64,000 bases of DNA from the NCBI GenBank assembly GCA_006738865.1, contig AP019701.1:124001-188000 (forward strand), read 5' to 3'. Position numbers and translations under genes: made by a program. Below the pieces are notes generated by a model that was not told the origin of the DNA, did not search any database, and saw only the letters and a program-made list of their open reading frames with translations. Source of the DNA: Allostella sp. ATCC 35155 (GTDB lineage Bacteria > Pseudomonadota > Alphaproteobacteria > ATCC43930 > Allostellaceae). How positions within the stretch are numbered: position 1 is the stretch's first letter; the number at the start of each line of letters is the position of its first letter. Shown piece after piece: positions 1 through 50,146 of this stretch.

Positions 1-804
1 GACGTCGCGCCATTCGGAGGAGGTCAGCGTGATCCCCACGGCCTCGACAATACCGAGCAGGAAGCCGCCGGCGATGGCGCCGGGGAAGCTGCCGAGGCCG
101 CCCAGCACGACGACCACGAACGCCTTGATGATGAGCGGCAGGCCCATCCAGGGATTGACCGCGAAGACCGGCGCCAGCAGTGCCGCGGCGACGGCGGCCA
201 GCGCCGCGCCGAGGGCGAAGGTCATGGTGTGGATGCGCGCGGCCGGCACGCCGACGACGGCGGCGGCCTCGGGATCCTGGGCGGTCGCACGCACCGCCCA
301 GCCGAAGCGGGTGTAGCGCAGCACATAGGCCATGACGCCCATCACCGCGACGGCGACGACGAAGATCAGCACGCGCTGCCACGGCAGCCGGAACTCGCCG
401 ACCTGCAGCAGCCCGTCGACGAAATAGGGCACCGACTGGAAGCGTTCGCCCCACAGGGCCAGCGCCAGGTTCTGCAGGAAGATCGAGACGCCGAGCGTCG
501 CCGCGATGGTACTGAAGGCCCAGCCTTCGCGCTTCAGCAGGACGTGGACGGTCAGGCGCTGGACGATGGCGGCGACGAGGGCGACGCCGGCGACCGCGAT
601 GATCACCGCCGGCACCGGATTCAGGCCCTGCTGGGCGAACAGGAAGAACACGAAGAACCCGCCCAGCATGTAGAACTCGCCATGCGCGAAGTTGAGGATG
701 CGCATGGTGCCGTAGATGAGGGCGAGGCCGGCCCCCATGATCGCGTACATGGATCCGAGGATGATCCCGTTGACGATCTGCTCCAGGAAGAGGGTGAGCG
801 TCAT
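1..804 (-). CDS. livH: Branched-chain amino acid ABC transporter permease LivH-like (partial at 3' end)
   Basis: Inner-membrane permease of a high-affinity branched-chain amino acid (or related amide/carboxylate) importer. About 268 codons are visible and the C-terminus lies beyond the left edge. The translation is strongly hydrophobic and starts MTLTLFLEQIVNGI, followed by GSMYAIMGAGLALIYGTMRI and LNFAHGEFYMLG, the hallmark N-terminal block of LivH permeases. A GGLGSFPGAIAGG loop, which in this family contacts the ATPase, lies near the visible end. It follows livF by 9 bp at the end of a livK-livG-livF-livH run. A LivM permease is expected downstream, outside the window. Substrate specificity cannot be read from the sequence. 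Confidence 0.93.
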   Translation of the reverse strand, partial: MTLTLFLEQIVNGIILGSMYAIMGAGLALIYGTMRILNFAHGEFYMLGGFFVFFLFAQQGLNPVPAVIIAVAGVALVAAIVQRLTVHVLLKREGWAFSTIAATLGVSIFLQNLALALWGERFQSVPYFVDGLLQVGEFRLPWQRVLIFVVAVAVMGVMAYVLRYTRFGWAVRATAQDPEAAAVVGVPAARIHTMTFALGAALAAVAAALLAPVFAVNPWMGLPLIIKAFVVVVLGGLGSFPGAIAGGFLLGIVEAVGITLTSSEWRDV

Positions 805-8995: not shown

Positions 8996-9484
8996 TCAGG
9001 CATAGGCGGCGTAGCGGCCGCAGATCGCAGCCGCGGTCCAGGCGGCGAGCGAGACGAGCGCGGCTAGGCGGGCCGATGCCGGAACGCCCTCCCAGGAGGC
9101 AACATCCCGGAAGCGCCCGCGATGGAAGAGGACGATGTTGGCGATCCCGATCCCGATCGCCGCGAACTTCGCCAGGAAGATCGGGTTGCCGACGATCGGG
9201 CCGGCCTCGGCGACGAACAGCACCAGACCGGTCGGCAGGGCGAGCGCGAAGCCGACCTTCGCCACCGGCAGCAGCAAGGCGGCCGCGTCCGCCGGCCGCG
9301 TCGCGCGAAGGACGCCCAGCAGCCGCAGGTCCAGCGCGGCGATGGCGCCCAGCAACAGCGCCACGCCCAGGACGTGAAGGACGTTGGACCAGGGATAGAT
9401 CCAGACCGAACCGCGGATCAGGTCGCCGGCCGCCGATTTCTCGATCGCGGTCGCCCAGGCGAGGATCGTGGCGCCGGCATCCAT
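8996..9484 (-). CDS. Small integral membrane protein, DUF6644-like
   Basis: 162 aa with about four transmembrane stretches: roughly residues 30-52 (WSNVLHVLGVALLLGAIAAL), 68-90, 100-122 and 138-158. His residues lie at membrane boundaries (NVLHVLG and VLFHRGR), which could bind haem or metal, but this is speculation. The WIYPWSNVLHV motif is typical of uncharacterised DUF6644 proteins as I recall the family. It is followed upstream, 19 bp away on the same strand, by a periplasmic DUF6152-like gene, so the two probably form a pair. Confidence 0.65.
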   Translation of the reverse strand: MDAGATILAWATAIEKSAAGDLIRGSVWIYPWSNVLHVLGVALLLGAIAALDLRLLGVLRATRPADAAALLLPVAKVGFALALPTGLVLFVAEAGPIVGNPIFLAKFAAIGIGIANIVLFHRGRFRDVASWEGVPASARLAALVSLAAWTAAAICGRYAAYA

Positions 9485-9503
9485 CGCGGGAGGCGGAACC
9501 CGG

Positions 9504-9863
9504 CTATCTCAGTTCGACGGTCTTGCCCTCGGCGATGACGCGCTCGGCGCGCAACTCGGCCTCGTCGGTGCGATGGGGGTAGCCGACCGCCGTCACCGAC
9601 TTGCCGACGGCGACCATCTCCGGCGTCAGGCCGCGCGCCCGCATCCGCGACGGCGGTGCCAGGATGACGAACCAGGTCTTGCCGCCGGCCTCCAGCCGCA
9701 TCGTTCCGTGCGGATTGCCGTAATGGATCTCCCGCACCGTGCCGGAGAGTTCCAGGGGGCGGCCGGAATCATAGGAGCCCCAGCCGTGATGGGCGGCGAG
9801 CGGGGCGGCGACGAGGAGGGCGGCGAGGCCGGCGGGGATGGCGGCTGCGGGCAGTGCGCGCAT
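9504..9863 (-). CDS. Periplasmic DUF6152-like protein
   Basis: 119-aa exported protein. A signal peptide (MRALPAAAIPAGLAALLVAA) is cleaved near PLAAHHG. The mature part begins HHGWGSYDSGRPLELSGTV, followed by YGNPHGTMRLEAGGKTW, a pattern typical of DUF6152 proteins, which are small OB-like beta proteins. The HH at the mature N-terminus could bind metal (inference). The function is unknown. The start at 9863 was chosen because it begins the signal peptide; a much longer open frame upstream shadows the ketopantoate-reductase gene. The DUF6644-like membrane protein lies immediately downstream. Confidence 0.75.
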   Translation of the reverse strand: MRALPAAAIPAGLAALLVAAPLAAHHGWGSYDSGRPLELSGTVREIHYGNPHGTMRLEAGGKTWFVILAPPSRMRARGLTPEMVAVGKSVTAVGYPHRTDEAELRAERVIAEGKTVELR

Positions 9864-10013
9864 GGCTTGGCTCCGGGACGGTTGCACCCGGTGGGATATG
9901 GTGCGGACGGCGGCGTCGACCAGCCCTGCCACGGTCGCCTTTCCGTTCCGACGCGGCGCCGGCACCGCTATGCTGTGGCCCCAGGCAAAATGGCACGAAC
10001 GGCGGGAGCGGGC

Positions 10014-34972: not shown

Positions 34973-35503
34973 TCAGGAGCCCGGCCGCGCCCGGCGGTGG
35001 GCGGCCGGCGCGACCGGTTCGGCGGTGCCGCCATGGTCATGGGTCAGGCAGTGGCCATGGGCGTGGTCCGCCAGCACCTCGATGATGCGGCAGTCGGCCG
35101 CCCGGTCGGCGTCGCAGGCGGCGATCATGCGGTCCAGTTCGCGTTCCAGCGCCTGCAGCCGCGCGATCCGGCTGCGCACCGCGTCGCGATGGCTGCTGGC
35201 GATCGCGTGGGCCTCGGCGCATGGCCGGTCCGGCTCGTCGGCAAGCGCCAGCAGCTCGCGGATCTGCTCCAGCGGGAAGCCCAGTTCGCGGGCGTGGCGG
35301 ATGAACGCCAGGCGATGGAGATGCGCTGCGCCGTACCGCCGCTGATTGCCGGACGAGCGGATCGCGGGCGGCAGCAGGCCGATCTGCTCGTACCAGCGGA
35401 TCGTCTGCACCTTGCACCCGGTTCGCTCGGCGAGCACCCCGATGGAGAGATCGCCCGGCGCGGCGGGCGGCGAGAAATCGAGTGCCATCTGCGGATCGGT
35501 CAT
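34973..35503 (-). CDS. MerR family regulator, heavy-metal-responsive type
   Basis: 176 aa. The HTH is LSIGVLAERTGCKVQTIRWY, followed by EQIGLLPPAIRSSGNQRRYG. A dimerisation helix leads to a metal-binding loop with Cys95 (DRPCAEAHA), Cys130 and Cys138 (AACDADRAADC), the spacing seen in CadR/ZntR/PbrR types. The tail DHAHGHCLTHDHGG is rich in His with one more Cys and could bind metal as well. No efflux ATPase is adjacent; the nearest membrane gene is the HupE/UreJ gene. CATATCTATG at 35508-35517, just upstream of the start, is a possible autoregulatory dyad. The metal is unknown. Confidence 0.87.
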   Translation of the reverse strand: MTDPQMALDFSPPAAPGDLSIGVLAERTGCKVQTIRWYEQIGLLPPAIRSSGNQRRYGAAHLHRLAFIRHARELGFPLEQIRELLALADEPDRPCAEAHAIASSHRDAVRSRIARLQALERELDRMIAACDADRAADCRIIEVLADHAHGHCLTHDHGGTAEPVAPAAHRRARPGS

Positions 35504-35601
35504 GGGTCATATCTATGCCCTTGCGGGCGCACCCGGAAGGGTCGCGGGAACCGCCATGCCCGGGATATGGTCGACTGGCCGATCCGACCGGAGGTCCACC
35601 C

Positions 35602-36516
35602 ATGCTGTTCGCGCCGCCGCAGCGCATCGCCACCACCGTCTTTGCCCGCCTGCCCGATCACCTGCGACGGCCGCGGCGCAGCGAGTGGGCCGACGCCAAC
35701 CGCGGCGGGCATCACGTCGACTGCTTCCTGGAAGGCCCGTCCTTCGATCGGCAGGGCGATCTCTGGGTCACCGACATTCCGAACGGCCGCATCCTGCGGG
35801 TATCGCCGGCCGGCCAGTTCACCCTCGTCGCGGAGTATGACGGCGAACCGAACGGCCTGAAGATCGCCCGCGACGGCCGCATCGCCATCGCGGACTACAA
35901 GAACGGCCTCCTGACGCTCGATCCGGCCTCCGGCACGATTGCGCCCCTGATCTCGCGTCGCCATTCCGAGCGGTTCCGCGGGCCGAACGACCTCATCTTC
36001 GCGTCGAACGGCGATCTCTACTTCACCGACCAGGGCCAGAGCGGCCTGCACGACCCGAGCGGCCGGGTCTACCGCCTGACGGCGGCCGGTCGGCTGGAAT
36101 GCCTTCTCGACCGCGTGCCGAGCCCGAACGGGATCGCGCTCTCACCCGACGAGCGCATTCTCTACGTCGCCGTCACCCGCGCCAACGCCGTCTGGCGGCT
36201 GCCGCTGATGGCCGACGGATCGCCCTCGAAGGTCGGCTGTTTCCTGCAGCTGTCGGGCGGCACCGGCCCGGACGGAATCGCCGTCCTCGGTTCCGGTGGG
36301 CTGGCCGTCTGCCATGTCGGCCTCGGCGCCGTCTGGCTGTTCGGGCCGACCGGCGAGCCGGAATGGCGGGTCGACAGCTGCGCCGGGCCGGGCACCACCA
36401 ATCTCGCCTTCGGCGGCGCGGACCGGCGGACGCTCTACATTACCGAGAGCGAGACCGGCCAGATCCTGAGGGCGGAGATCCCGGTCGCGGGGCTGCCGCT
36501 CTACTCGCACGCCTGA
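35602..36516 (+). CDS. SMP-30/gluconolactonase/LRE family protein
   Basis: 304-aa six-bladed beta-propeller lactonase, cytoplasmic. Blade motifs are CFLEGPSFDRQGDLWVTDIP, LIFASNGDLYFTDQGQ, SPNGIALSPDERILYVAVT and GGTGPDGIAVLGSGGLAVC. The conserved Glu of the first blade (EGPSFD), Asn of GPNDLIF and Asp of GPDGIAV are the metal ligands in the family. It would open sugar or other lactones; together with the uronate-dehydrogenase-like gene at 6 kb it could fit sugar-acid oxidation, but they are 29 kb apart. GGAGGT precedes the ATG at 35602. It is divergent from the MerR gene. Confidence 0.9.
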   Translation: MLFAPPQRIATTVFARLPDHLRRPRRSEWADANRGGHHVDCFLEGPSFDRQGDLWVTDIPNGRILRVSPAGQFTLVAEYDGEPNGLKIARDGRIAIADYKNGLLTLDPASGTIAPLISRRHSERFRGPNDLIFASNGDLYFTDQGQSGLHDPSGRVYRLTAAGRLECLLDRVPSPNGIALSPDERILYVAVTRANAVWRLPLMADGSPSKVGCFLQLSGGTGPDGIAVLGSGGLAVCHVGLGAVWLFGPTGEPEWRVDSCAGPGTTNLAFGGADRRTLYITESETGQILRAEIPVAGLPLYSHA

Positions 36517-36520
36517 CGGA

Positions 36521-36527
<7 letters not shown>
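36510..36527. terminator. Convergent-junction hairpin built from both stop codons
   Basis: A 7-bp stem CGCCTGA (36510-36516) / TCAGGCG (36521-36527) with loop CGGA. The left arm contains the TGA of the SMP-30 gene and the right arm the TCA (minus-strand TGA) of the kinase gene. The stem is short and lacks a T run, so a terminator role is tentative. Confidence 0.4.
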
Positions 36528-39589
<3,062 letters not shown>

Positions 39590-39698: not shown

Positions 39699-41444
39699 TC
39701 AGGCGACGCGGTCGCCCTTCTTGATTTCGACGGCCCGATTGTCGACGCCGGGTAGCATCTGGCCCGGATCGCGGGTCACGACGACGTCGATCACGGTCGG
39801 TCGGTCGCGCTCGGCGATGCCGGCCGCGAGCGCACCGTCGATGGCCGCCGGGTCTTCCACCCGGATGCCGCGGCAGCCCATCTGCTCGGCGATCGCGGCG
39901 TAGTTCATCTCGACGAGATCGCTCGACTGGTAGCGCCGGCCGTACATCGCGTGCTGCAGCGCCTTGACGTAGCCCGAGGCGGCGTTGTTGACGACGACCA
40001 CCGTCAGGTTCGCGCCGCAGCGCCGCGCCGTCTCCAGCTCGCCCAGGCCCATGTTGAAGCCGCCGTCGCCCGTGACCGCGACGACCGGCTTGTCCGGTAC
40101 GCCGAGTGCGGCACCCATGCCGCCCGGCAGGCCGTAGCCGATCGAGGCCAGGCCGCGGTCGGCGATATAGTGCCGTCCGGCCGCCTTGGTGTCGTAGATG
40201 AGGCCGGTCCAATGGGCGGCAAAGCCGCCGTCGGCGACGACGACGCTCTCGGCCGGCATCACCTGGTTCAGCCCGTGGCAGAGCCGCGCCATGTTGATCG
40301 GCCGGTCGGTCGACAGCAGGCGGGGCGATGCCTCCTCCCGCCACTTGGTCATCCGCACCGGGATCTCGGCCAGATAGTCCGCGCGTTCGCCGCGCAGGCG
40401 GCGCGCATCGCCCGACAGCGCATCGGCCAGATCGTCGAGGCCGGCGGCCGCGTCCCCCCACAGCGCCACATCGCTCCGCTGGTGGCGGCCGATCTCCTCG
40501 GCGACGATGTCGAGGTGGATGATCGGGACGCCGGCGGGGATCAGCGCATAGCGCTTGGTCGCGATCTCGCCCAGCTTGCAGCCGACCACGAGCAGGCAGT
40601 CGGCCGCCGCGATGAGGTCGTTGGCGATGCGCGAATAGCGGCCGAACAGGCCGACCGACAGCGGGTCGGTGCAGGCGATCGAGCCCTTGCCGCTCATCGT
40701 GTGGGCGACCGGGATGCCGCAGCTCTCGGCCAGCCGCTGCAGCGCCGCCTGCCCGGCGGAGAGGTGGACGCCGCCGCCGACCAGCAGCAGCGGCCGCTTC
40801 GAGCCGGCGATCAGCGCCGCCGCCCGCTCGATCGCGGTCCGGTCGGGCCGGCTGCGGCGCGCCGGCGCGGCCAGCGTGTCGGCCGGGATCTGGAAGTCGT
40901 CGGCCGCAAACTCGTGCTCGCCGTGGCAGACGTCTTCGGGAACATCCAGCAGGACCGGGCCCGGTCGGCCGGAGGTCGCCACCGCGAAGGCACGGCGCAT
41001 CAGCTCCGGAATCCGGCTGGTCAGCTCGACCCGGATGAGCTCCTTCACCGCCGGGCGCAGGATGTCCACCTGCCGGCATTCCTGGGTCATGTTCTTCCAG
41101 GAGTGCGCACGGTGCGAATCGCCCGCGATCGCCACCATCGGCGTTCCGGCGTTGAGGGATTCGACCAGTCCCGTGACGAGATTGGTGGCACCGGGGCCGA
41201 GTGTGCCGTCGCAGACGCCGGGCCGGTTGGTCACCCGCGCATAGGCATCGGCCGCAAACGCGCCATGCCGCTCGTCGTTGATGAGGAAGTGGCGCAGGCC
41301 AAGCTGGTGCAGCGCGTCGTAGAACGGCAGCAGCTGGAAGCCGCCCATGCCGAACATCGGGCCGACACCGGCAAGGCGCAGCATCTCGGCCATCGCCCGG
41401 CCGCCATTCATGCGGCCGGAAGGTAGGTTCGCCAGTTCGGACAT
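39699..41444 (-). CDS. Thiamine-diphosphate-binding enzyme (acetolactate-synthase-like large subunit family)
   Basis: 581 aa with the three-domain ThDP fold. The N-terminal Pyr domain has the catalytic Glu58 in LINDERHGAFAADAYAR and CDGTLGPGATNLVTGL. The central domain has LLLVGGGVHLSAGQ. The C-terminal PP domain has VAVTGDGGFNMGLGELETA then VVVVNNAASGYVKAL, the ThDP-Mg GDG...N motif. No ACT-type regulatory subunit is near, so branched-chain synthesis is unlikely; it is probably a catabolic 2-oxo acid decarboxylase or lyase. It is second in a two-gene operon, 11 bp after the duplicated-domain protein. Start at 41444. Confidence 0.9.
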   Translation of the reverse strand: MSELANLPSGRMNGGRAMAEMLRLAGVGPMFGMGGFQLLPFYDALHQLGLRHFLINDERHGAFAADAYARVTNRPGVCDGTLGPGATNLVTGLVESLNAGTPMVAIAGDSHRAHSWKNMTQECRQVDILRPAVKELIRVELTSRIPELMRRAFAVATSGRPGPVLLDVPEDVCHGEHEFAADDFQIPADTLAAPARRSRPDRTAIERAAALIAGSKRPLLLVGGGVHLSAGQAALQRLAESCGIPVAHTMSGKGSIACTDPLSVGLFGRYSRIANDLIAAADCLLVVGCKLGEIATKRYALIPAGVPIIHLDIVAEEIGRHQRSDVALWGDAAAGLDDLADALSGDARRLRGERADYLAEIPVRMTKWREEASPRLLSTDRPINMARLCHGLNQVMPAESVVVADGGFAAHWTGLIYDTKAAGRHYIADRGLASIGYGLPGGMGAALGVPDKPVVAVTGDGGFNMGLGELETARRCGANLTVVVVNNAASGYVKALQHAMYGRRYQSSDLVEMNYAAIAEQMGCRGIRVEDPAAIDGALAAGIAERDRPTVIDVVVTRDPGQMLPGVDNRAVEIKKGDRVA

Positions 41445-41455
41445 GGTCGGGTCGA

Positions 41456-42292
41456 TCAGCCTTTCTGGTGGGCGGCGAGCACGCGCTCGCAGAATTCCTG
41501 GACCGGCATGTCGCGCTGGGCGCCCAGCGCGGCCGCCGCCTGATTGGCGAAGGAGAGGCGGCCCGTCGCCCATGCCGAGCGGGCGTCGCCGATGCGCGCG
41601 CTCTGGTTGCTGACCGTCACGGCGGCGATGCCGCGGGCATTGAGGGCCGGCAGCCGCCCGACGCCGGCGCGGTCGATGCCCATGCCGGCATCGTTGAACA
41701 CCGCCGCCAGGACGTCGGCCTTGATCGCCAGCGCCGGATTGCCGCCCATGAGGCCGCCATGCGAACCGGTGACGACGATGTGGCCGACATCCTCCGGCGT
41801 GACGAGCGAAGCGGAGTCCAATCCCCAGACCTTCGGGCCGGCGGCATTGTCCCGCAGCAGCGTGCGGGTCTCCTCGGCCATCGGCGGCGCCGCGTCTTCG
41901 GCGGGGGGAAGGGCTGCGACCATGCGCGCGGCGCAGTCGCGGACCTTGAGGCCGGGGACGCAGCCGAGCTGGCGCGCCGGGCCGTTGGCATGGCCGACGA
42001 GGCCACGGTCGACCATGTCGCGGGCGTCGCCGATGCGGCAGGACGAATGATAGACGGCGGCGGCGGGGATGCCGAGCCGCTCGAGATAGGCGAGGCCGGC
42101 GATGCCGGCCTCGTCGAGGCCGACCCCGGCATCGTTGAAGATCGCCGCCCGCACGCGCCCGCGCGCGGCCAGATAGCCGGAATAGGTTCCGCCGTGGGAG
42201 GCTGCGATCAGCACCAGTCCGGCGCAGCGCTCGTCCACCTGGGTGACGCTGTCCAGGGCAAAGATCGGTGAGGTCTGAGTCTGTTGATCCAT
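41456..42292 (-). CDS. Unrecognised protein built of two tandem copies of a ~115-residue domain
   Basis: 278 aa, no signal peptide or membrane segment. Residues about 12-125 and 158-273 are clearly homologous: both begin LDS, then contain SHGG (32-35; 177-180), FNDAGxGxDxAG (52-63; 199-210), RIGDAR (86-91; 233-238) and an AN...A..LG block. The conserved Ser/His/Asn/Asp/Arg residues and Gly-rich turns suggest an enzyme or ligand-binding active site repeated in each half, but I do not recognise the family. A linker of about 30 residues rich in Ala/Pro/Glu separates the copies. It is first in the operon with the ThDP enzyme and divergent from the E1/TRAP/BKACE operon, so it may act on the same substrate. 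Start at 42292, MDQQTQTSPIFALDS. Confidence 0.8.
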   Translation of the reverse strand: MDQQTQTSPIFALDSVTQVDERCAGLVLIAASHGGTYSGYLAARGRVRAAIFNDAGVGLDEAGIAGLAYLERLGIPAAAVYHSSCRIGDARDMVDRGLVGHANGPARQLGCVPGLKVRDCAARMVAALPPAEDAAPPMAEETRTLLRDNAAGPKVWGLDSASLVTPEDVGHIVVTGSHGGLMGGNPALAIKADVLAAVFNDAGMGIDRAGVGRLPALNARGIAAVTVSNQSARIGDARSAWATGRLSFANQAAAALGAQRDMPVQEFCERVLAAHQKG

Positions 42293-42416: not shown

Positions 42417-43475
42417 ATGCCGGCACCGCTAGTCGACCGGCCGGGAGAATCGCGCGCCGATGCCACGGGTCCGATCCGTGGCAACGTCGACCGCGCGCGC
42501 ATCCTCGGTCACTATCGCACCATGGCGCGCGTCCGCGCCTTCGAGGAGGCGGCCGACCGGGCGCTGCAGGCCGGGCACGTCAAGGGCGCGGTCCACCTGT
42601 CGATCGGCCAGGAGGCCGTTGCGTCGGGCGTCTGCGTCAATCTCGATCGCGGCGACTTCATCGTCAGCAACCATCGCGGGCACGGGCATACGCTGGCCAA
42701 GGGCGCGGACATGGGCGCCATGATGGCCGAGCTCTTCGGCCGCGCGACCGGCGCGTGCCAGGGCAAGGGCGGCTCGATGCACATCGCCGATTTCCAGGTC
42801 GGCATGCTCGGCGCCAACGGCGTCGTCGGCGCCGGCATTCCGATCGCGGTCGGCGCGGCGCATGCGATGAAGCTCGCCGGCGACCCGCGCATCGTCACCT
42901 GCTTCTTCGGTGACGGCGCCATCAATCGAGGGCCCTTCCTGGAGGGGCTCAACTGGGCCAAGGTGTTCGACCTGCCGGTGCTGTTCGTCTGCGAGGACAA
43001 CGGATTCGCGGCGACGACGCGGACGCGCGCCGTCACCGCCGGCCCGGGGCCCGGCGCCCGGGCGGAGAGCCTGGGCATCCCGTCGACCCCGGTCGACGGC
43101 AACGACGTGCTCGCGGTCGACCAGACGGCGGCCGAACTCGTCCGCCTCGTGCGCGCTGGTGCCGGACCCCAGTTCCTGCACGCCCGGACCTACCGGCTGC
43201 GCGGCCATACCGCGGTCGATCCGGCGCCCTACCGGCCGGCCGCCGAGGTCGAGGAGCACTGGCGCGACGAACCGATCCGCCGCTGCCGCGACCTGCTGGT
43301 GCTGGGCGGCCTGGATACGGACGAATTGGACCGGGTCGTGGCGGACGCCGAGGCCGAGGCGGCCCGGGCGGTCGCCGACGGGTTGGCGGCGCCGCATCCC
43401 GAAGCGGATCTGGCATGGACCGATGTCCAGGACGTCGACATGCCCGGTGCGGGCCGGCCGGAGGCGCGGGCATGA
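42417..43475 (+). CDS. Thiamine-diphosphate-dependent dehydrogenase E1 component, alpha subunit
   Basis: 352 aa of the pyruvate/acetoin dehydrogenase E1-alpha family. It has HLSIGQEAVASGVCVNL, SNHRGHGHTLAKGAD, GRATGACQGKGGSMHIAD and the ThDP motif FFGDGAINRG ... CEDNGFA (GDG at 165-167, Asn195), plus YRLRGHTAVDPAPYR. It is closest in appearance to AcoA-type enzymes that use 2-oxo acids or acetoin. GAGGAGGGA precedes the ATG at 42417. The stop overlaps the beta-subunit start as ATGA. No E2 or E3 gene is present in the operon. Confidence 0.92.
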   Translation: MPAPLVDRPGESRADATGPIRGNVDRARILGHYRTMARVRAFEEAADRALQAGHVKGAVHLSIGQEAVASGVCVNLDRGDFIVSNHRGHGHTLAKGADMGAMMAELFGRATGACQGKGGSMHIADFQVGMLGANGVVGAGIPIAVGAAHAMKLAGDPRIVTCFFGDGAINRGPFLEGLNWAKVFDLPVLFVCEDNGFAATTRTRAVTAGPGPGARAESLGIPSTPVDGNDVLAVDQTAAELVRLVRAGAGPQFLHARTYRLRGHTAVDPAPYRPAAEVEEHWRDEPIRRCRDLLVLGGLDTDELDRVVADAEAEAARAVADGLAAPHPEADLAWTDVQDVDMPGAGRPEARA

Positions 43476-44440
43476 GCCAGCTCAGCTATCTCGACGCCTC
43501 GCGACAGGCGATCGCCGAGGAGATGCGGCGCGACCCGCGCGTCTGGGCGCTCGGCGAGGATCTCGGGCGCGGCGGCGTCTTCGGCCAGTATCGCGGCCTC
43601 GCCGAGGAGTTCGGCCCCGCCCGCATCGCCGACACCCCGATCTCCGAGGCGACGATCATGGGCGCGGCCGTCGGCGCGGCGATGGTCGGCAGCCGGCCGG
43701 TGGTCGAGATGCGGTTCTCGGACTTCGCCCTCTGCGCCGTCGACGAGCTGGTCAACCAAGCCGCCAAGGCACGCTACATGTTCGGCGGCCAGGGGCGGGT
43801 GCCGCTCGTCGTGCGCCAGCCGATCGGCATGTGGCGCTCGTCCGCAGCCCAGCACTCGCAGTCGCTCGAAGCCTGGTATGCGCATATTCCGGGTCTCGTC
43901 GTGGTCGCGCCCGCGACGCCCGCGGACAATTACGGGCTGCTCAAGTCGGCCATCCGCTGCGACGATCCCGTCGTCTACATGGAGCACAAGGATCTCTGGC
44001 CGGCGCTGGGCGAGGTGCCCGCCGATGCCGAGAACGGGCTGGTGCCGCTCGGCGAAGGCCGGCTGGTGCGCCGCGGCGACGACGTCACGATCGTCACCTG
44101 GTCGCGCATGGTCCAGGTGGTGGAGGCGGCGGCGGACGAGCCGGACACGCCGTCGCTGGAGATCATCGACCTGCGCACGCTGTGGCCGTGGGACCGGGCC
44201 ATGGTGCTGGATTCCGTGCGCCGCACCGGGCGCTGCCTCATCGTGCACGAGGCGGTGCAGGCGGGCGGCTTCGGCGGCGAGATCGCGGCCACCGTCGGCG
44301 AGGCGCTGTTCGGTGCCCTGAAGGCGCCCGTGCGCCGCCTCGGCGCGCCGCGCATCCCCGTCGCCTACGCGCCGGTGCTGGAGGCGGAGAGCCGCATCAT
44401 GCCCGCGAAAGTGGCGGCGGCGGCACGCGCGATGGTATGA
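43472..44440 (+). CDS. Thiamine-diphosphate-dependent dehydrogenase E1 component, beta subunit
   Basis: 322-aa partner of the alpha subunit. Visible blocks are LGEDLGRGGVFGQYRGLAEE, DTPISEATIMGAAVGAAMVG, EMRFSDFALCAVDELVNQAA and QSLEAWYAHIPGLVVVAPAT. The C-terminal domain has IIDLRTLWPWDRAMVLDSVR and CLIVHEAVQAGGFGGEIAA. Family members complete the active site and bind the E2 core; the E2 must be encoded elsewhere, or the E1 works without it. It is followed by the TRAP binding-protein gene after 29 bp. Confidence 0.93.
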   Translation: MSQLSYLDASRQAIAEEMRRDPRVWALGEDLGRGGVFGQYRGLAEEFGPARIADTPISEATIMGAAVGAAMVGSRPVVEMRFSDFALCAVDELVNQAAKARYMFGGQGRVPLVVRQPIGMWRSSAAQHSQSLEAWYAHIPGLVVVAPATPADNYGLLKSAIRCDDPVVYMEHKDLWPALGEVPADAENGLVPLGEGRLVRRGDDVTIVTWSRMVQVVEAAADEPDTPSLEIIDLRTLWPWDRAMVLDSVRRTGRCLIVHEAVQAGGFGGEIAATVGEALFGALKAPVRRLGAPRIPVAYAPVLEAESRIMPAKVAAAARAMV

Positions 44441-44469
44441 ATGCTCAACAAGATCGGGAGGAGGACCCC

Positions 44470-45498
44470 ATGACGATGTCCAGGAGATGGCTCTTCGCCG
44501 CAGCCGGCGCGCTCGCGGTCTCGCTTACGGCCGGCATGGCCGCGGCCCAGGCCTACAAGTCGGAATACAAGCTCTCGACCGTCGTCGGGAAGCCGTTCCC
44601 GTGGGGCATCGCCGGCGAGCGCTGGGGCGACCTCGTGCGCGAGCGGACGCAGGGCCGCATCAACATCAAGATGTATCCCGGCACCAGCTTGGTCGGCGGC
44701 GACCAGACCAAGGAATTCACCGCGCTCCGCCAGGGCACGATCGACCTCGCCATCGGCTCGACCATCAACTGGTCGCCGCAGATCAAGCAGCTCAACCTGT
44801 TCTCGATGCCCTTCCTGATGCCCGACTACAAGGCGATCGACGCGCTGACGCAGGGGCCGGTGGGCAAGAAGTTCTTCGAGCTTCTTTCGGCCCGGGACGT
44901 CGTGCCGCTGGCCTGGGGTGAGAACGGCTTCCGCGAGGTGACCAACTCCAAGCGCGAGATCAAGTCGCCCGACGACATGAAGGGCCTCAAGTTCCGCGTC
45001 GTCGGCTCGCCGCTCTTCAACGACACCTTCTCGGCGCTGGGCGCCAACCCGACGCAGATGAGCTGGGCCGACGCGCAGCCGGCCCTGTCGACGGGCGCGG
45101 TCGACGGCCAGGAGAACCCGCTCACCATCTTCACCGTCGCCAAGCTGCATACGGTCGGCCAGAAATACGTCACGCTCTGGGGCTACGTCGCCGACCCGCT
45201 GATCTTCGTCGTCAACAAGCAGGTCTGGGCGAGCTGGAAGCCGGAAGACCAGAAGATCGTCCGCGAGGCGGCCATGCAGGCGGCCAAGGAGAACATCGTC
45301 GCGGCGCGCAAGGGGATCGTCCCCGGCGACGATGCGACGCTGAAGGAGATCGCGGGCCTCGGCGTGACCATCACGCGCCTGTCCCCGGCCGAGCTGAAGG
45401 CGTTCCAGACCGCGACCAAGCCGGTCTACGAGAAATGGACCAAGGAGATCGGTCCGGATCTCGTGAAGATGGCCGAAGACTCGATCGCCAAGCGCTGA
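44470..45498 (+). CDS. TRAP transporter substrate-binding protein, DctP family
   Basis: 342 aa. The signal peptide MTMSRRWLFAAAGALAVSLT is cleaved near AAAQ. The mature start is AYKSEYKLSTVVGKPFPWGI. Conserved blocks are TQGRINIKMYPGTSLVGGDQ, ALRQGTIDLAIGST, MKGLKFRVVGSPLFNDTFSA (the carboxylate-binding Arg) and WADAQPALSTGAVDGQENPL. DctP members bind C4-dicarboxylates, 2-oxo acids, uronates and other acids; which one applies here is not evident. GGGAGGAGG precedes the ATG at 44470. A hairpin follows the gene before dctQ. Confidence 0.94.
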   Translation: MTMSRRWLFAAAGALAVSLTAGMAAAQAYKSEYKLSTVVGKPFPWGIAGERWGDLVRERTQGRINIKMYPGTSLVGGDQTKEFTALRQGTIDLAIGSTINWSPQIKQLNLFSMPFLMPDYKAIDALTQGPVGKKFFELLSARDVVPLAWGENGFREVTNSKREIKSPDDMKGLKFRVVGSPLFNDTFSALGANPTQMSWADAQPALSTGAVDGQENPLTIFTVAKLHTVGQKYVTLWGYVADPLIFVVNKQVWASWKPEDQKIVREAAMQAAKENIVAARKGIVPGDDATLKEIAGLGVTITRLSPAELKAFQTATKPVYEKWTKEIGPDLVKMAEDSIAKR

Positions 45499-45507
45499 CC
45501 CTGGGAT

Positions 45508-45540
45508 CGCCCCCCTCGCGCCGGCCGGCGCAAGGGGGCG
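45508..45540 (+). terminator. Hairpin between TRAP binding-protein and DctQ genes
   Basis: Outer stem CGCCCCC (45508-45514) / GGGGGCG (45534-45540), with an inner GCGCC (45518-45522) / GGCGC (45527-45531) stem. It begins 9 nt after the binding-protein stop, with no U tract. It probably lowers permease expression relative to the receptor, like the hairpins after livK-like and pstS genes in this window. Confidence 0.6.
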
Positions 45541-45559
45541 TCCCGTCGACCGATCCGGC

Positions 45560-46063
45560 ATGACCGAGCACGACCAGGAGGCGCCGGGGCGCCCCGATCC
45601 GGGCCCCCGCGTTCCCATCCGCATCGAAGAGGCGCTGACTGCGGCGGCGATGGCCGCCCTCTGCCTCATCACATTCGGCAATGTCGTCGTCCGCTACCTG
45701 ACGAACATCTCCTTCGCCTTCACGGAGGAGTACTCGATCGCGCTGATGGTGATCGTGACGCTGCTCGGCAGTGCGGTCGCCTTCACCGGCGACCGGCATA
45801 TCCGCGTCACCTTCCTGCTCGACCGCCTGACGCCCGGCGCGCGGCGCTGGGCAGAGCTGCTCGTGCTCGCCGCCTGCATCGTCATGTTCGCGCTGCTCGT
45901 CCGGCTCGGCGGCCGCCTCGCCTGGGACGAGTACCGCTTCGAGGAGACCTCGCCGGGGTTGGGTATCCCGACCTTCCTCTACACCATGTGGCTGCCGATC
46001 CTGTCGGCGGTTATCGTGCTGCGGCTGATCGGCCGCGCCATCCGGGTCTGGCGGGCGCGATGA
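45560..46063 (+). CDS. TRAP transporter small permease, DctQ family
   Basis: 167-aa inner-membrane protein with four predicted helices: about 27-46 (AAAMAALCLITFGNVVVRYL), 57-76, 96-116 and 134-155. The family motif FAFTEEYSIALMVIVTLLGS and DRHIRVTFLLDRL are present. It assembles with the large DctM permease, whose start overlaps its stop as ATGA. Confidence 0.93.
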   Translation: MTEHDQEAPGRPDPGPRVPIRIEEALTAAAMAALCLITFGNVVVRYLTNISFAFTEEYSIALMVIVTLLGSAVAFTGDRHIRVTFLLDRLTPGARRWAELLVLAACIVMFALLVRLGGRLAWDEYRFEETSPGLGIPTFLYTMWLPILSAVIVLRLIGRAIRVWRAR

Positions 46064-47349
46064 GCTTCGATACCGTGGTGCTGCTGTTCGGCTTCTTCGC
46101 GCTGATGTTCGCGGGCGTGCCGATCGCGGTCGCGCTCGGGCTGGTGGCTTCCGGTGTCATCGCCCATGCCGGGCTCGGCATCATGGCGATCCCGACCGGC
46201 ACCTACACGGGCATCGCCAAATATCCGCTGCTCGCCATCCCGGTCTTCATTCTCGCCGGCCTCATCTTCGAGCGCTCGGGCGTCGCGGCGCGGCTGGTGA
46301 CCCTGGCGACGGCGCTGGTCGGCCAGCGCGGGGGCGGGCTCGGCATCGTCGCCGTCCTGGTCTGCATGGTCATGGGCGGCATCTCGGGGTCGGGTCCGGC
46401 GGACGCCGCCGCCGTCGCCACGGTCATGACCGCCGGCATGGCCAAGGCCGGCTATCCCCGCGCCTTCAGTGCCAGCCTGATCGCCGCCGCCGGCTCGACC
46501 GCGATCCTCATTCCGCCGTCCATCGCCTTCATCGTCTACAGCGTCCTGGTGCCGAGCGCGACGGTGCCCGCCCTCTTCGCGGCCGGCATCTTCCCGGGCC
46601 TGCTGGCCGGCCTGTCGCTGATGGTGCCGATCGTTGTCATCTCGCGCTGGTACGGCTTCGGCCGTGATGCCGAGGGCGAGCGGCCCCGGGTCTGGGAGAG
46701 CCTCAAGGACGCCTCGTGGGGCCTGCTCGCCCCGGTCATCATCCTGGGCGGGATGCGCACCGGCGCCTTCACCCCGACCGAGGCCGCCGTGGTCGCGGTC
46801 TTCTACGGCCTTGCGGTCGGCGTCTTCGTCTACCGCACGATCGATCTGCGCGGCCTCTATCGCCTGCTGGTCGAGGCCGGGGAGATCTCGGCCGTCGTCA
46901 TGCTGATCGTCGCCCTCGCCAGCGTCTTCGCCTGGGCGGGATCGACGCTCGGCGCCTTCGATCAGGCGGCCAAGCTGCTGCTCGGCCTGGGACTGGGCGA
47001 GTGGGGCGTCATGGCGGTCCTGATGGGGCTCCTCATCGTCGCCGGCATGTTCCTCGACGGCGTCTCGATCTTCCTGATCATGCTGCCGATCCTGGTGCCG
47101 ATCGCGATGGCGTTCGGGTGGGACATGGTCTGGTTCGGCGTGATCCTGACCATGAACATCGCCATCGGCCAGTTCACGCCGCCAGTCGCCGTCAACCTGA
47201 TGGTCACCTGCAAGGTCGCGGGCGTCAGCATCGAATCGACCATCCCCTGGGTCGTCTGGATGATCCTCGCCATGGCGTCGGCCATGGCGCTCGTCATAGT
47301 CTTCCCCGGCATCGCCCTCTGGCTGCCGCAAGCCCTCGGCTACGGCTGA
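46060..47349 (+). CDS. TRAP transporter large permease, DctM family
   Basis: 429-aa sodium/substrate symporter subunit with 11-12 helices. It starts MSFDTVVLLFGFFALMFAGV. Family motifs are IPVFILAGLIFERSGVAARL, GGISGSGPADAAAVATVM, AAAGSTAILIPPSIAFIVYS, MRTGAFTPTEAAVVAVFYG and IAIGQFTPPVAVNLMVTCK. It is separate from DctQ, unlike the fused permease at 15-17 kb, so the two TRAP systems are distinct types. Confidence 0.95.
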   Translation: MSFDTVVLLFGFFALMFAGVPIAVALGLVASGVIAHAGLGIMAIPTGTYTGIAKYPLLAIPVFILAGLIFERSGVAARLVTLATALVGQRGGGLGIVAVLVCMVMGGISGSGPADAAAVATVMTAGMAKAGYPRAFSASLIAAAGSTAILIPPSIAFIVYSVLVPSATVPALFAAGIFPGLLAGLSLMVPIVVISRWYGFGRDAEGERPRVWESLKDASWGLLAPVIILGGMRTGAFTPTEAAVVAVFYGLAVGVFVYRTIDLRGLYRLLVEAGEISAVVMLIVALASVFAWAGSTLGAFDQAAKLLLGLGLGEWGVMAVLMGLLIVAGMFLDGVSIFLIMLPILVPIAMAFGWDMVWFGVILTMNIAIGQFTPPVAVNLMVTCKVAGVSIESTIPWVVWMILAMASAMALVIVFPGIALWLPQALGYG

Positions 47350-47379
47350 GCCGTCCTTCATCCGTTCGGGAGATCACGC

Positions 47380-48315
47380 ATGGCCGCCGCCAAGAAGGTC
47401 ATCATCACCTGCGCCGTCACCGGCTCCATCCATACGCCGACCATGTCGCCGCATCTGCCGCTGACCCCCGACGAGATCGCGACCCAGGCGATCGAGGCGG
47501 CGGAGGCAGGCGCCAGCATCCTGCACCTGCACGCCCGCGACCCGAAGACCGGCAAGCCGACGCCCGACCCCGCGGTCTTCATGGAGTTCCTGCCGCGGAT
47601 CAAGCAGTCGACCGACGCGGTGGTGAACATCACCACCGGCGGCGGCCACGGCATGTCGCTGCAGGAGCGGCTGGCAGCCGCGGTCCTCGCCAAGCCGGAG
47701 ATGACGTCGCTCAACATGGGGTCGATGAACTTCGGTCTCTTCCCCATGCTCGACCGGCCGCGGGAATGGAAGCACGACTGGGAACCCCAGATGCTGGAGA
47801 ATTCCCGCGACTTCATCTTCCGCAACACCTTCAAGGATATCGAGTACATCCTGAAGGAGCTGGGCGAGGGCGCGGGCGTCAAGTTCGAGTACGAGTGCTA
47901 TGACGTGGGCCACCTCTACAATCTGGCCCATTTCCTCGACCGCAAGCTGGTGACGCCGCCGCTCTTCGTGCAGACGATCTTCGGCATCCTCGGCGGCATC
48001 GGCGCCGACCCCGAGAATCTGATGCACATGAAACGCACGGCCGACAAGCTGTTCGGCGACGACTATCGCTGGTCGGTGCTGGCGGCCGGCCGCCACCAGC
48101 TTCCCTTCACGACCATGGCGGCGGTGATGGGCGGCAATGTCCGCGTCGGGCTGGAGGACAGCCTCTATATCGGCAAGGGCAAGCTGGCGAAGTCGAACGC
48201 CGAGCAGGTGCGCCTGATCCGCTCGATCATCGAGAGCCTGTCGCTGGAGATCGCGACGCCGGAGGAGGCGCGCGCCGAACTTGCCCTCAAGGGCGGCGAC
48301 AAGGTCGCGTTCTAG
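47380..48315 (+). CDS. Beta-keto acid cleavage enzyme (BKACE, DUF849 / 3-keto-5-aminohexanoate cleavage family)
   Basis: 311-aa TIM-barrel metalloenzyme. It begins KKVIITCAVTGSIHTPTMSP, contains the zinc-binding ASILHLHARDPKTGKPTPD (His-x-His), the catalytic acid region NITTGGGHGMSLQERL, FEYECYDVGHLYNL, and NVRVGLEDSLYIGKGKLA. The family condenses a beta-keto acid with acetyl-CoA to give acetoacetate and a CoA ester, with substrates ranging from 3-keto-5-aminohexanoate to dehydrocarnitine. It follows the TRAP permease by 30 bp, so the imported acid or a derivative is its likely substrate. The specificity residues cannot be assigned by eye. Confidence 0.92.
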   Translation: MAAAKKVIITCAVTGSIHTPTMSPHLPLTPDEIATQAIEAAEAGASILHLHARDPKTGKPTPDPAVFMEFLPRIKQSTDAVVNITTGGGHGMSLQERLAAAVLAKPEMTSLNMGSMNFGLFPMLDRPREWKHDWEPQMLENSRDFIFRNTFKDIEYILKELGEGAGVKFEYECYDVGHLYNLAHFLDRKLVTPPLFVQTIFGILGGIGADPENLMHMKRTADKLFGDDYRWSVLAAGRHQLPFTTMAAVMGGNVRVGLEDSLYIGKGKLAKSNAEQVRLIRSIIESLSLEIATPEEARAELALKGGDKVAF

Positions 48316-48348: not shown

Positions 48349-49284
48349 TTGGAGGCGACCCTCACGGTCGTCCTGCCCGTGTTCGGCCTGCTGGCCGTGG
48401 GCTGGGCGGTCGCCCGCTTCGGCATCGTCGACGAGAAGGGCGCGCGCGGGGTCGGACAGGTCGTCCTGCATGTCCTGATCCCGGCGCTCCTCTTCCGCAG
48501 CCTCGCGACCGAGCGCGGGCTCGGCCCCAACGAACTCAAGGTCGCCGGCGCGTTCTTCATGGGCGCGTTGCTGCTCTATGGCGTCGGCATGCTCACGGCG
48601 CGGCGCTTCTTCGCCGCCCGGCTCGACGGCCAGGCGTTCATGGGCATGAGCGTCACCTTCGGCAACACCGTACAGATGGGCATCCCGCTCGTCGTGCTCG
48701 CCTACGGCTCGAAGGGCGAGGCGCCGCTGCTCGCGATCATCACCTTCCACTCGCTGGTCCTGATCTCGCTGACGACGGTCCTCGTCGAGATCGGCCAGAA
48801 CCGGGGGCGGGGCCCGCTCGCGACGCTGCGCCAGAGCGTGGCGGCGCTCGCGACCCACCCGATCATCATCGCGATCGTGGCGGGCATCGCCTGGGGCCTC
48901 ACCGGCCTGACGTTGCCGGTCATCCTCGATCGCTTCCTGATGCTGGCGGGCGGCGGCGCCGGGCCGATGGCGCTGCTGGCGCTGGGGGCCGGCCTCAACG
49001 GCATGCAGATCGCGGGCGACCTCAGGGAGAGCATCGTCGTCTCGGCGATGAAGCTGGTCGCGCTGCCGCTCATCGTCTGGCTGCTGGCGCGCCATCTCTT
49101 CGCCCTGCCGCCGCTCGAGGTCGCGGTGGCCACCATCGCGGCCGCCATGCCGACCGGGGCCAACGTCTTCATTCTCGCCCGCCGCTACGACCTCTATCTG
49201 CGGCGCGCGGCCAGCACGGTGCTGATCTCGACCGTCGGCTCGGTGGTGACGATTTCGGTCATCCTGACCCTCCTGACGGGGTAA
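48349..49284 (+). CDS. AEC family transporter (auxin efflux carrier fold)
   Basis: About 311-aa membrane protein with roughly ten helices in two inverted halves. It starts ATLTVVLPVFGLLAVGWAVA, has VVLHVLIPALLFRSLATERG and the conserved FGNTVQMGIPLVVLAYG, and a second half THPIIIAIVAGIAWGLTGL ending AAAMPTGANVFILARRYD. AEC carriers move malonate, malate or similar acids, often outward. The start is TTG at 48349 with no clear ribosome-binding site, so the N-terminus is uncertain. It is 33 bp after the BKACE gene and possibly in the same operon. Confidence 0.85.
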   Translation: MEATLTVVLPVFGLLAVGWAVARFGIVDEKGARGVGQVVLHVLIPALLFRSLATERGLGPNELKVAGAFFMGALLLYGVGMLTARRFFAARLDGQAFMGMSVTFGNTVQMGIPLVVLAYGSKGEAPLLAIITFHSLVLISLTTVLVEIGQNRGRGPLATLRQSVAALATHPIIIAIVAGIAWGLTGLTLPVILDRFLMLAGGGAGPMALLALGAGLNGMQIAGDLRESIVVSAMKLVALPLIVWLLARHLFALPPLEVAVATIAAAMPTGANVFILARRYDLYLRRAASTVLISTVGSVVTISVILTLLTG

Positions 49285-49357
49285 GGTCCGGGTCGGCTCC
49301 GGCGTGCCAGCGGCCCGGGGCCGATCATCGTCATGTATCGGATGCGGATGATCCGTC

Positions 49358-50146
49358 ATGCCCCGCAGCGTCGACCCGAACGACTACCAGCACGTCGCCC
49401 GACCGGTCGCCGCGATGCCCAAGGACTTCGCGGCGGGCTTCCGGATCGCGCCGCATTCCCACCCGCGGGCGCAGCTCGTCCATGCCGTCGAGGGACTGAT
49501 GTGGGTCGAGACGGATGCCGGCGCCTGGGCCGTGCCGACCCGCCATGCCCTGTGGCTGCCCCCCGGGATCCGGCACGCCGTGCGCATGGTGACGACGGTC
49601 GCCATGCGCACGCTCTACATCGACACGGCCCGCATCGAGCGGCTGCCCCGGACCTGCACCGTCATCGCGGTCTCGCCGTTGCTGCGCGAGCTCATCGTCG
49701 CCGCCATGGCCGAGCCGGTGGAGTATGACGAAGCCGGTCGCGGGGGCCATATCGCGGCCCTGCTGCTGGACGAACTGCGCCGGTCGCCGGCCGCACCCGT
49801 CCATCTGCCGATGCCGCGCGACCGCCGCCTCGTCCGCATCGCCGACGGGCTGCTGGCCGAGCCGGCGCGCGACGATACGCTCGATGCCTGGGGCGAGATG
49901 GTCGGGGCCAGCGGCCGCACGCTCGCCCGCCGCTTCCGGGAGGAGACCGGCATGAGCTTCGCCGAGTGGCGTCAGCGCGCGCGCCTCGTCCTGGCGCTCG
50001 CCCGCCTTGCCGAGGGCGAGTCGGTCGGTGCGCTTGCCTCCGCGCTCGGCTACCGCAGCGCCAGCGCCTTCACGGCGATGTTCCGCCGCACCATCGGCCG
50101 GCCGCCGCAATCCTATCGCCCCAAGATCGCCGATGCCCGTCCGTAA
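49358..50146 (+). CDS. AraC family transcriptional regulator with N-terminal cupin domain
   Basis: 262 aa. The cupin part (about 20-110) has RIAPHSHPRAQLVHAVEGLM and LPPGIRHAVRMV. The C-terminal double HTH has TLDAWGEMVGASGRTLARRF followed by REETGMSFAEWRQRARL and ALASALGYRSASAFTAMFRR with TIGRPPQSYR. It is of the AraC/XylS-type subgroup with the DUF6597/cupin sensor rather than an arabinose-like one. It lies just after the AEC gene and could control the 42-49 kb operon, but it also overlaps the DUF6880 gene by 14 bp. Confidence 0.9.
   Translation: MPRSVDPNDYQHVARPVAAMPKDFAAGFRIAPHSHPRAQLVHAVEGLMWVETDAGAWAVPTRHALWLPPGIRHAVRMVTTVAMRTLYIDTARIERLPRTCTVIAVSPLLRELIVAAMAEPVEYDEAGRGGHIAALLLDELRRSPAAPVHLPMPRDRRLVRIADGLLAEPARDDTLDAWGEMVGASGRTLARRFREETGMSFAEWRQRARLVLALARLAEGESVGALASALGYRSASAFTAMFRRTIGRPPQSYRPKIADARP

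Follow-up and report, generated by a model that had tools for sequence, protein, structure and literature searches.

Gene content of the P0001 locus

The window, a stretch of 64,000 nucleotides covering positions 124001-188000 of a one-contig genome of 5.34 Mb, carries on its minus strand a gene, P0001, which is translated as an open frame of 278 amino acids plus stop. The same reading frame extends further, to a longest open frame of 348 amino acids, and the shorter start is favoured by the presence of a methionine at the same position in three same-genus homologues. As proposed in a preliminary description of this DNA, P0001 is the first gene ahead of a ThDP enzyme, P0002, which starts 11 nt after the P0001 stop, and lies beside a divergent cluster of E1, TRAP and BKACE genes, found at 42417-48315 on the plus strand (Table 1).

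Table 1 Features of P0001 and of the genes that surround it in the window
Feature	Position	Strand	Basis or remark
P0001 gene, 278-aa two-copy protein	41456..42292	(-)	Open frame; start position conserved in relatives
N copy of domain, about residues 10-125	41918..42265	(-)	Half-versus-half alignment, BLASTP, residue columns
Motifs of N copy	SHGG 32-35; NDAG 53-56 (FNDAG 52-56); RIGDARD 86-92		Gly66 and Asp92
C copy of domain, about residues 155-273	41474..41830	(-)	Half-versus-half alignment, BLASTP, residue columns; modelled alone
Motifs of C copy	SHGG 177-180; NDAG 200-203 (FNDAG 199-203); RIGDARS 233-239		Arg213
P0002, acetolactate-synthase-like ThDP enzyme	39699..41444	(-)	Follows P0001; three TPP_enzyme Pfam domains
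E1 alpha (P0003), divergent from P0001	42417..43475	(+)	ATG 42417 chosen as start, 124 nt from P0001
E1 beta (P0004)	43472..44440	(+)	Transket_pyr and Transketolase_C; NF006667 310.9 bits, cut-off 321
DctP-type TRAP solute-binding protein (P0005)	44470..45498	(+)	TIGR00787 190 bits, above cut-off 175; start estimated from ORF
Probable TRAP small permease	45560..46063	(+)	Named from position and sequence
Probable TRAP large permease	45988..47349	(+)	Named from ORF list; start uncertain
BKACE, NCBIfam 3,5-dioxohexanoate:acetyl-CoA acetone transferase	47380..48315	(+)	NF053538 552 bits, above cut-off 430

With its three TPP-enzyme domains, P0002 matches many acetolactate synthase models. The best of its NCBIfam matches, acolac_lg, scored 386 bits against a cut-off of 538, and P0002 fell below every cut-off among the matches listed (25 of the 51 NCBIfam families matched). 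The E1 alpha protein, scanned from internal position 42516, matched E1_dh at 2.9e-66 and PDH_E1_alph_y at 293 bits, below the cut-off of 394.

P0001 is built from two copies of one domain

P0001 consists of two copies of one domain of about 120 residues. Aligning residues 1-140 with 141-278 gave a BLOSUM62 score of 197, which lies at z = 27 relative to 2000 shuffles (mean 32.6, s.d. 6.1, maximum 68), and BLASTP of the N against the C copy gave 39% identity across 120 residues (E 1e-22). The preliminary description had recognised these homologous halves, which it placed at residues 12-125 and 158-273, correct to within a few residues, and had noted that SHGG, FNDAG and RIGDAR (residues 86-91 and 233-238) are common to both; their order is indeed identical in the two copies.

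Three alignments were used: A1 (P0001 and 19 of 26 other loci from nearest relatives), A2 (P0001 and 69 of the best 80 loci, 70 proteins in all) and A3 (the halves of 34 of the A2 proteins, with L091 and L102 left out). Eleven columns are invariant across 68 half-domains from 34 proteins, including the Ser, the His and the first Gly of SHGG, the Asp of NDAG and a later Asn, and the polar residues S32, H33, D54, N103, S177, H178, D201, R213 and S239 are kept in 70/70 family proteins.

The earlier proposal of a functional pocket in each half is plausible, but such pockets would be unequal, since Arg213 and Ser239 of the C copy stand where the N copy has Gly66 and Asp92. In 70/70 proteins residue 213 is Arg and residue 239 is Ser. 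At the N position matching the first, the N halves listed have Gly, Ala, Ser or Cys; at that matching the second, Asp92, 68/70 have Asp. Eight single-domain rows combine Gly, Ser or Ala at the equivalent of 213 with Asp, Ser or Glu at that of 239. Because these rows share the N-type residues, the N copy seems to have kept the ancestral, single-domain type and the C copy to have become specialised, having gained an Arg and a Ser. In a wider set of C halves, exceptions were found at position 213 in L111, L112, L127, L128, L129 and L132 (Gly) and in L140 (Ala), and at position 239 in L111 (Arg) and in L127 and L140 (Asp). Separately, the two-copy homologues of L128, L111 and L112 are divergent, another residue taking the place of the Ser or the His of SHGG in one copy or in both, and are possibly inactive or of other function.

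A tree of 104 rows, from which the partial row L122 (a second frame) had been removed, grouped the N halves separately from the C halves, leaving a divergent clade of both kinds to one side, and set the single-domain rows beside the C halves with weak support, though their residues are N-type. This tree suggested that the domain was doubled twice; we do not claim this, because in a 50-row tree a single clade of all N halves was not rejected (AU test, p 0.218).

An unnamed family with a probable remote relation to DUF1805

The preliminary description did not recognise the family, and no characterised family was met in Pfam, NCBIfam or PDB sequence searches. P0001 reached no Pfam or NCBIfam family (best NCBIfam E 0.05; the only Pfam match was a sub-cut-off one to DUF1805), and these scans found no cofactor domain in it. 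Pfam gave no ACT domain in P0001, nor was one among the four families listed for the 70 members. Abhydrolase, suggested by the HGG of SHGG, had no Pfam match in P0001; it was matched in 1/70 members at E 0.0026 and in 8/68 halves at E <= 1 (best 0.0067). Sequence searches of the PDB returned only weak unrelated matches, the best E being 0.095 for P0001, 0.34 for A1 and 0.068 for the half profile of A3, and no description of the family appeared among the records listed in searches of the open-access literature.

AlphaFold2 modelled the whole of P0001 from the 70-row alignment with mean pLDDT 96.3 and pTM 0.92, and the C copy alone with pLDDT 96.7 and pTM 0.91. In both modelled copies SHGG, NDAG and SARIGDA each come after successive strands, and would line the same edge of the sheet. 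Foldseek found no PDB entry at E <= 0.001 for either the whole model or the single copy, 1qw2 being matched at E 0.88 and 1.7, respectively. With VIA-align, 1qw2 was the best match of the whole model (Z 7.2; next 5.1) and of the single copy (Z 7.5, rmsd 2.6, 74/129 residues; next Z 4.7), all values lying below 8, and no dehydrogenase, glycosyltransferase or hydrolase stood clear of the other matches.

The 1qw2 segment (TA1206) belongs to DUF1805 (PF08827, E 1.1e-21). DUF1805 is also the commonest sub-threshold Pfam match of the family, with 49/70 members at E <= 0.01 (best E 1.5e-07). In P0001 the signal lies at residues 247-270 and reaches 19.2 bits against a gathering score of 29.5. Across 11 related genomes the DUF1805 cut-off was passed in none, and four of the six sub-threshold places were in genes of the P0001 family. 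Aligned by hhalign to the single 1qw2 segment, only 21 columns were matched, at a probability of 1%, with no alignment of the whole domain. The C-terminal stretch that gives the DUF1805 signal also matches IMS in 31/70 members, and some of that signal may therefore stem from a short, common motif; the IMS domain itself (Y-family polymerases), weakly matched over a short C-terminal strand-helix, was rejected and taken as a shared local motif. DUF1805, through 1qw2, gives the best VIA-align match of P0001, but differs from it in being single-copy and, by our own reading of the 1qw2 segment, in lacking the SHGG segment and its helix. P0001 is probably a remote relative of DUF1805 and not a member.

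Range of the family and single-domain relatives

P0001 is a member of an unnamed doubled-domain family found in 25/61 genomes of its nearest relatives (own genome included), in 46/385 genomes of the class and in 4/299 genomes of a phylum sample. Across the genome collection homologues occur at 402 places or more; Gemmatimonadales, Poribacteria, Latescibacterota and Spirochaetaceae are represented among the best 80. Thirteen plasmids carry the family, five of them haloarchaeal; 12/13 of the records annotate the gene as 'hypothetical protein' and one leaves it unannotated.

Only one copy was matched in six genomes (G519, G677, G608, G605, G680 and G305), in one of which, G677, a second partial match lies close to the first. 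The single domain of G605 forms the end of a longer open frame (L124:1-2406, 802 residues), the earlier part of which reads as membrane-protein-like, so that this domain may be fused to a membrane protein. G003 (L130), which belongs to the same genus as the window, has a pair of adjacent one-domain genes at 9128-9556 and 9559-9951, between SDR and TRAP-like genes and in a locus that also has OiaK-like and OiaX-like genes. These relatives show that the domain can stand alone, P0001 being the doubled form.

P0001 is a standing partner of one ThDP enzyme

The association with a ThDP enzyme proved stronger than could be seen from the window. Gene calls in relatives were a rough choice of ORFs, and neighbourhood counts, which come from the best 80 of at least 402 places, lean towards close relatives. 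A ThDP gene is present in 68/80 of these loci, 67 of them at >= 58% identity and L107 at 30%, together with E1 alpha in 39, E1 beta in 38 (42% to 90% identity), SDR in 25 and IclR in 20. BKACE is present in 1/80 within the flanks covered and on that count does not appear to belong to the conserved module, an idea that was rejected, and a crude motif scan of called ORFs in the 80 loci saw no lipoyl E2 near the genes. Among the 46 loci with at least 5 kb on both sides, 41 have the ThDP gene, 24 have E1 alpha and beta, and five have neither partner. The 30 two-copy loci L131-L160, which represent 29 of the class sample's 41 two-copy genomes together with L140 from the phylum sample, include 18 with ThDP, 17 with E1, 21 with either and nine with neither; in three of these nine (G687, G408 and G514) both partners lie elsewhere in the genome.

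Whole-genome occurrence followed the same partners. Within the 385 class genomes the ThDP subfamily (E <= 1e-150, 62% identity or more) occurs in 35 and the E1 beta subfamily (E <= 1e-95) in 36. The P0001 family and ThDP overlap in 33 genomes, the family and E1 in 35, ThDP and E1 in 33, and all three in 33; three to four would be expected by chance per pair (about four for family and ThDP, versus the 33 seen). Fisher p is 1e-34 or less for each pair, a value that ignores shared ancestry, and the 33 genomes span 17 families. Every genome with both ThDP and E1 (33/33) has the P0001 family, which is missing from two ThDP genomes (G386 and G415) and one E1 genome (G626). Conversely, 13 of the 46 family genomes are without the ThDP enzyme and 11 without the E1 beta subfamily, and of five single-domain-only genomes, G608 and G680 have E1 and no ThDP enzyme. 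In the 33 genomes, family and ThDP genes lie no more than 12 kb apart in 26, family and E1 in 25, all three in 21, and no pair in two. At least one of the three genes lies apart in 12/33 genomes, so linkage alone does not explain their co-occurrence.

A further 24 genomes, picked because a partner was not seen near the family gene, have the ThDP enzyme in 17 and lack it in seven (L055, L061, L063, L079, L082, L103 and L107), with an E1 beta of 60% identity or more in six. Eight beta-proteobacterial genomes (L064, L077, L090, L101, L089, L105, L076 and L039) have ThDP and no E1 beta reaching 1e-60; both are present in Pseudacidovorax (L086). Few candidates were scored per genome (three for ThDP, five for E1, six for the family), so some absences may be misses. 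The partners also adjoin in Poribacteria, Latescibacterota and Betaproteobacteria. P0001 is thus the standing partner of one acetolactate-synthase-like ThDP enzyme, and since the pair occurs without E1 in beta-proteobacteria, P0001 and P0002 form the core, to which E1 is a common but not a needed addition.

Distant relatives occur in other settings

The preliminary description would have taken homologues consistently remote from ThDP or TRAP genes as refuting its proposal. Half of this applies: close relatives mostly sit beside a ThDP gene, and more distant ones sit elsewhere and so make the family wider than one pathway. OiaK is 3-oxo-isoapionate kinase and OiaX is 3-oxo-isoapionate decarboxylase. 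P0001 homologues have genes like these as direct neighbours in haloarchaea, L140 and L130, and within the same locus in L103 and L057, but P0001 itself matches no model of the pathway and the scanned neighbours fall below NCBIfam cut-offs. On 5/5 haloarchaeal plasmids a RuBisCO-like gene and a gene for a four-carbon acid sugar kinase come after the family gene, and an SDR gene lies nearby; on the Natrinema plasmid the RuBisCO-like gene is annotated only as a fragment. In L114, the haloarchaeal locus that was scanned, the neighbours best match OiaX (512 bits) and OiaK (448), with a cut-off of 700. In L140 the family gene forms a single run with OiaX-, OiaK- and ApnO-like genes and an SMP-30-like gene; the OiaX and OiaK scores of this locus (454 and 536 bits), like that of OiaK in L103 (317), are below the same cut-off of 700. 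L057 combines OiaK- and OiaX-like genes with the ThDP gene in one locus. The window has no OiaK-, OiaX- or ApnO-like gene. An ApnO-like gene was found in 3/385 class genomes, one of which (G006) has the module; given this scarcity, apionate itself is an unlikely substrate in most of the class, and degradation of apionate by the ThDP module was rejected for the class at large.

Other distant homologues lie in acyl-CoA or aromatic-acid type clusters (Rhodococcus, Rhizobium, Aminobacter), by SDR and cupin genes (Methylovirgula), between plasmid replication and PQQ-dehydrogenase genes (Ponticoccus), or in GMC-oxidoreductase or CMD clusters, L129 adjoining a CMD-family gene; Fic and GNAT genes are among the neighbours of single-domain members. 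In L063, the region directly upstream of the homologue (L063:3-3203) codes for the acylating sulfoacetaldehyde dehydrogenase SauS, above cut-off, and for CoA-ligase subunits (succinate-CoA-ligase-like) just under theirs, a possible link of this homologue to sulfonate breakdown. The two-copy homologues of L128 and L137 lie near hydantoinase-like A/B genes, as named by reading their sequences.

A putative role in hydroxy-oxo acid breakdown

That P0001 supplies a missing step in an undescribed carboxylate pathway, as first suggested, can reasonably be inferred. Our preferred reading, to which we give a probability of roughly 35%, is that P0001 is a putative cofactor-free hydrolase or isomerase whose substrate would be a hydroxy-oxo-carboxylate or its lactone and whose product would feed the ThDP enzyme. 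The ancestral unit would have been one Rossmann-like alpha/beta domain, some 125 residues long and remotely DUF1805-like, that was doubled and fused in P0001, the C copy then gaining its Arg/Ser pair. The position of SHGG, NDAG and SARIGDA after successive strands makes it probable that each copy has one pocket lined by these motifs, predicted to bind a small hydroxylated oxo-carboxylate. On this reading P0001 would most likely take an imported acid or the corresponding lactone and, by opening the ring or through isomerisation or epimerisation, turn it into an alpha-hydroxy-beta-oxo acid, which P0002 would then split in the reverse sense of acetolactate synthase; E1 alpha and beta, where present, would handle a product.

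By structure, 3-oxo-isoapionate is a dihydroxy form of acetolactate. Given this resemblance, the OiaK/OiaX route and a retro-acting ThDP enzyme could be alternative ends for similar acids, with the P0001 family acting before them. The preferred reading is favoured by the co-occurrence and adjacency of the family with the ThDP gene, by the conserved polar residues, by Pfam and NCBIfam scans that found no cofactor domain, and by distant members that adjoin relatives of enzymes for another branched alpha-hydroxy-beta-oxo acid. Against it stand the weakness of the apionate analogy, with the OiaK/OiaX-like neighbours below cut-offs, the lack of a significant Foldseek match and the acyl-CoA, GMC-oxidoreductase or CMD clusters of distant members; a lactonase role would also be less needed where an SMP-30-like gene adjoins the family gene, as in L140. 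The 13/46 class family genomes and 7/24 further genomes without a ThDP enzyme weigh against it too, and they also weigh against the idea that P0001 is no enzyme but an accessory or regulatory subunit, one whose two copies would each take up a metabolite and which would regulate the ThDP enzyme or assemble it, in the way that IlvN, the regulatory subunit of IlvB, relates to its partner. Such a subunit would fit a doubled, possibly ligand-binding domain, the frequent adjacency of the two genes and the presence of the family in 33/35 class genomes with the ThDP enzyme. We nonetheless think it unlikely, as P0001 has no ACT domain by Pfam, the family also stands beside OiaX/OiaK-like or acyl-CoA genes, and in some genomes with both the family gene lies away from the ThDP gene.

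In acetoin catabolism, E1 alpha and beta cleave an acyloin, and P0001 might by analogy decarboxylate alpha-hydroxy-beta-oxo acids as a non-homologous counterpart of acetolactate decarboxylase, leaving the acyloin to E1 alpha and beta. This would account for the ThDP ligase, P0001 and E1 alpha/beta together in 33 genomes, and for the CMD-family gene beside L129, but it would be redundant next to the OiaX-like decarboxylase of haloarchaea, L140 and L103, no lipoyl E2 was seen near the genes in the crude motif scan, and synthesis followed by breakdown would be strange in a cluster that has an importer; we regard it as distinctly unlikely. It is very unlikely that the family is a general housekeeping or moonlighting protein tied to ThDP by co-transfer of gene clusters only: its varied neighbours, including the Fic and GNAT genes, would be in keeping with this, yet co-occurrence persists at separate places (12/33 genomes) and across 17 families, and the partners are together in Poribacteria, Latescibacterota and Betaproteobacteria too.

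Beyond the preferred reading of a hydrolase or isomerase, it is possible, if rather doubtful, that P0001 founds a new enzyme class. Together with an acetolactate-synthase-like lyase running in reverse, and often with an E1-type ThDP enzyme that has no E2 of the usual kind nearby, it would make up a widespread undescribed bacterial route degrading a branched hydroxy-oxo acid, and haloarchaea would have taken up the doubled domain into a RuBisCO-like route for an acid of similar kind. At least 402 homologue places would gain a context, as a two- or three-part module with ThDP enzymes. If confirmed, the module would add a catabolic pathway, might give E1 alpha/beta a use outside the classical complexes, and would offer a first functional handle on a DUF1805-like fold; the partner enzyme and the pattern of occurrence make the function of P0001 directly testable.

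Further genes near the module

Other genes of the window flank the module. Downstream of P0002 on the same strand, 36521-39589 codes for a bacteriophytochrome-like hybrid histidine kinase (PAS_2, GAF, PHY, HisKA, HATPase and receiver domains), and a gene of the same cluster adjoins the module in L028 and L029. After BKACE, 48349-50146 holds genes for a Mem_trans-family transporter and an AraC-family regulator. An SMP-30/gluconolactonase-like gene lies near the module at 35482-36516, and such a gene is also found beside the family gene in L140 and in loci L028, L029, L066, L091 and L099.
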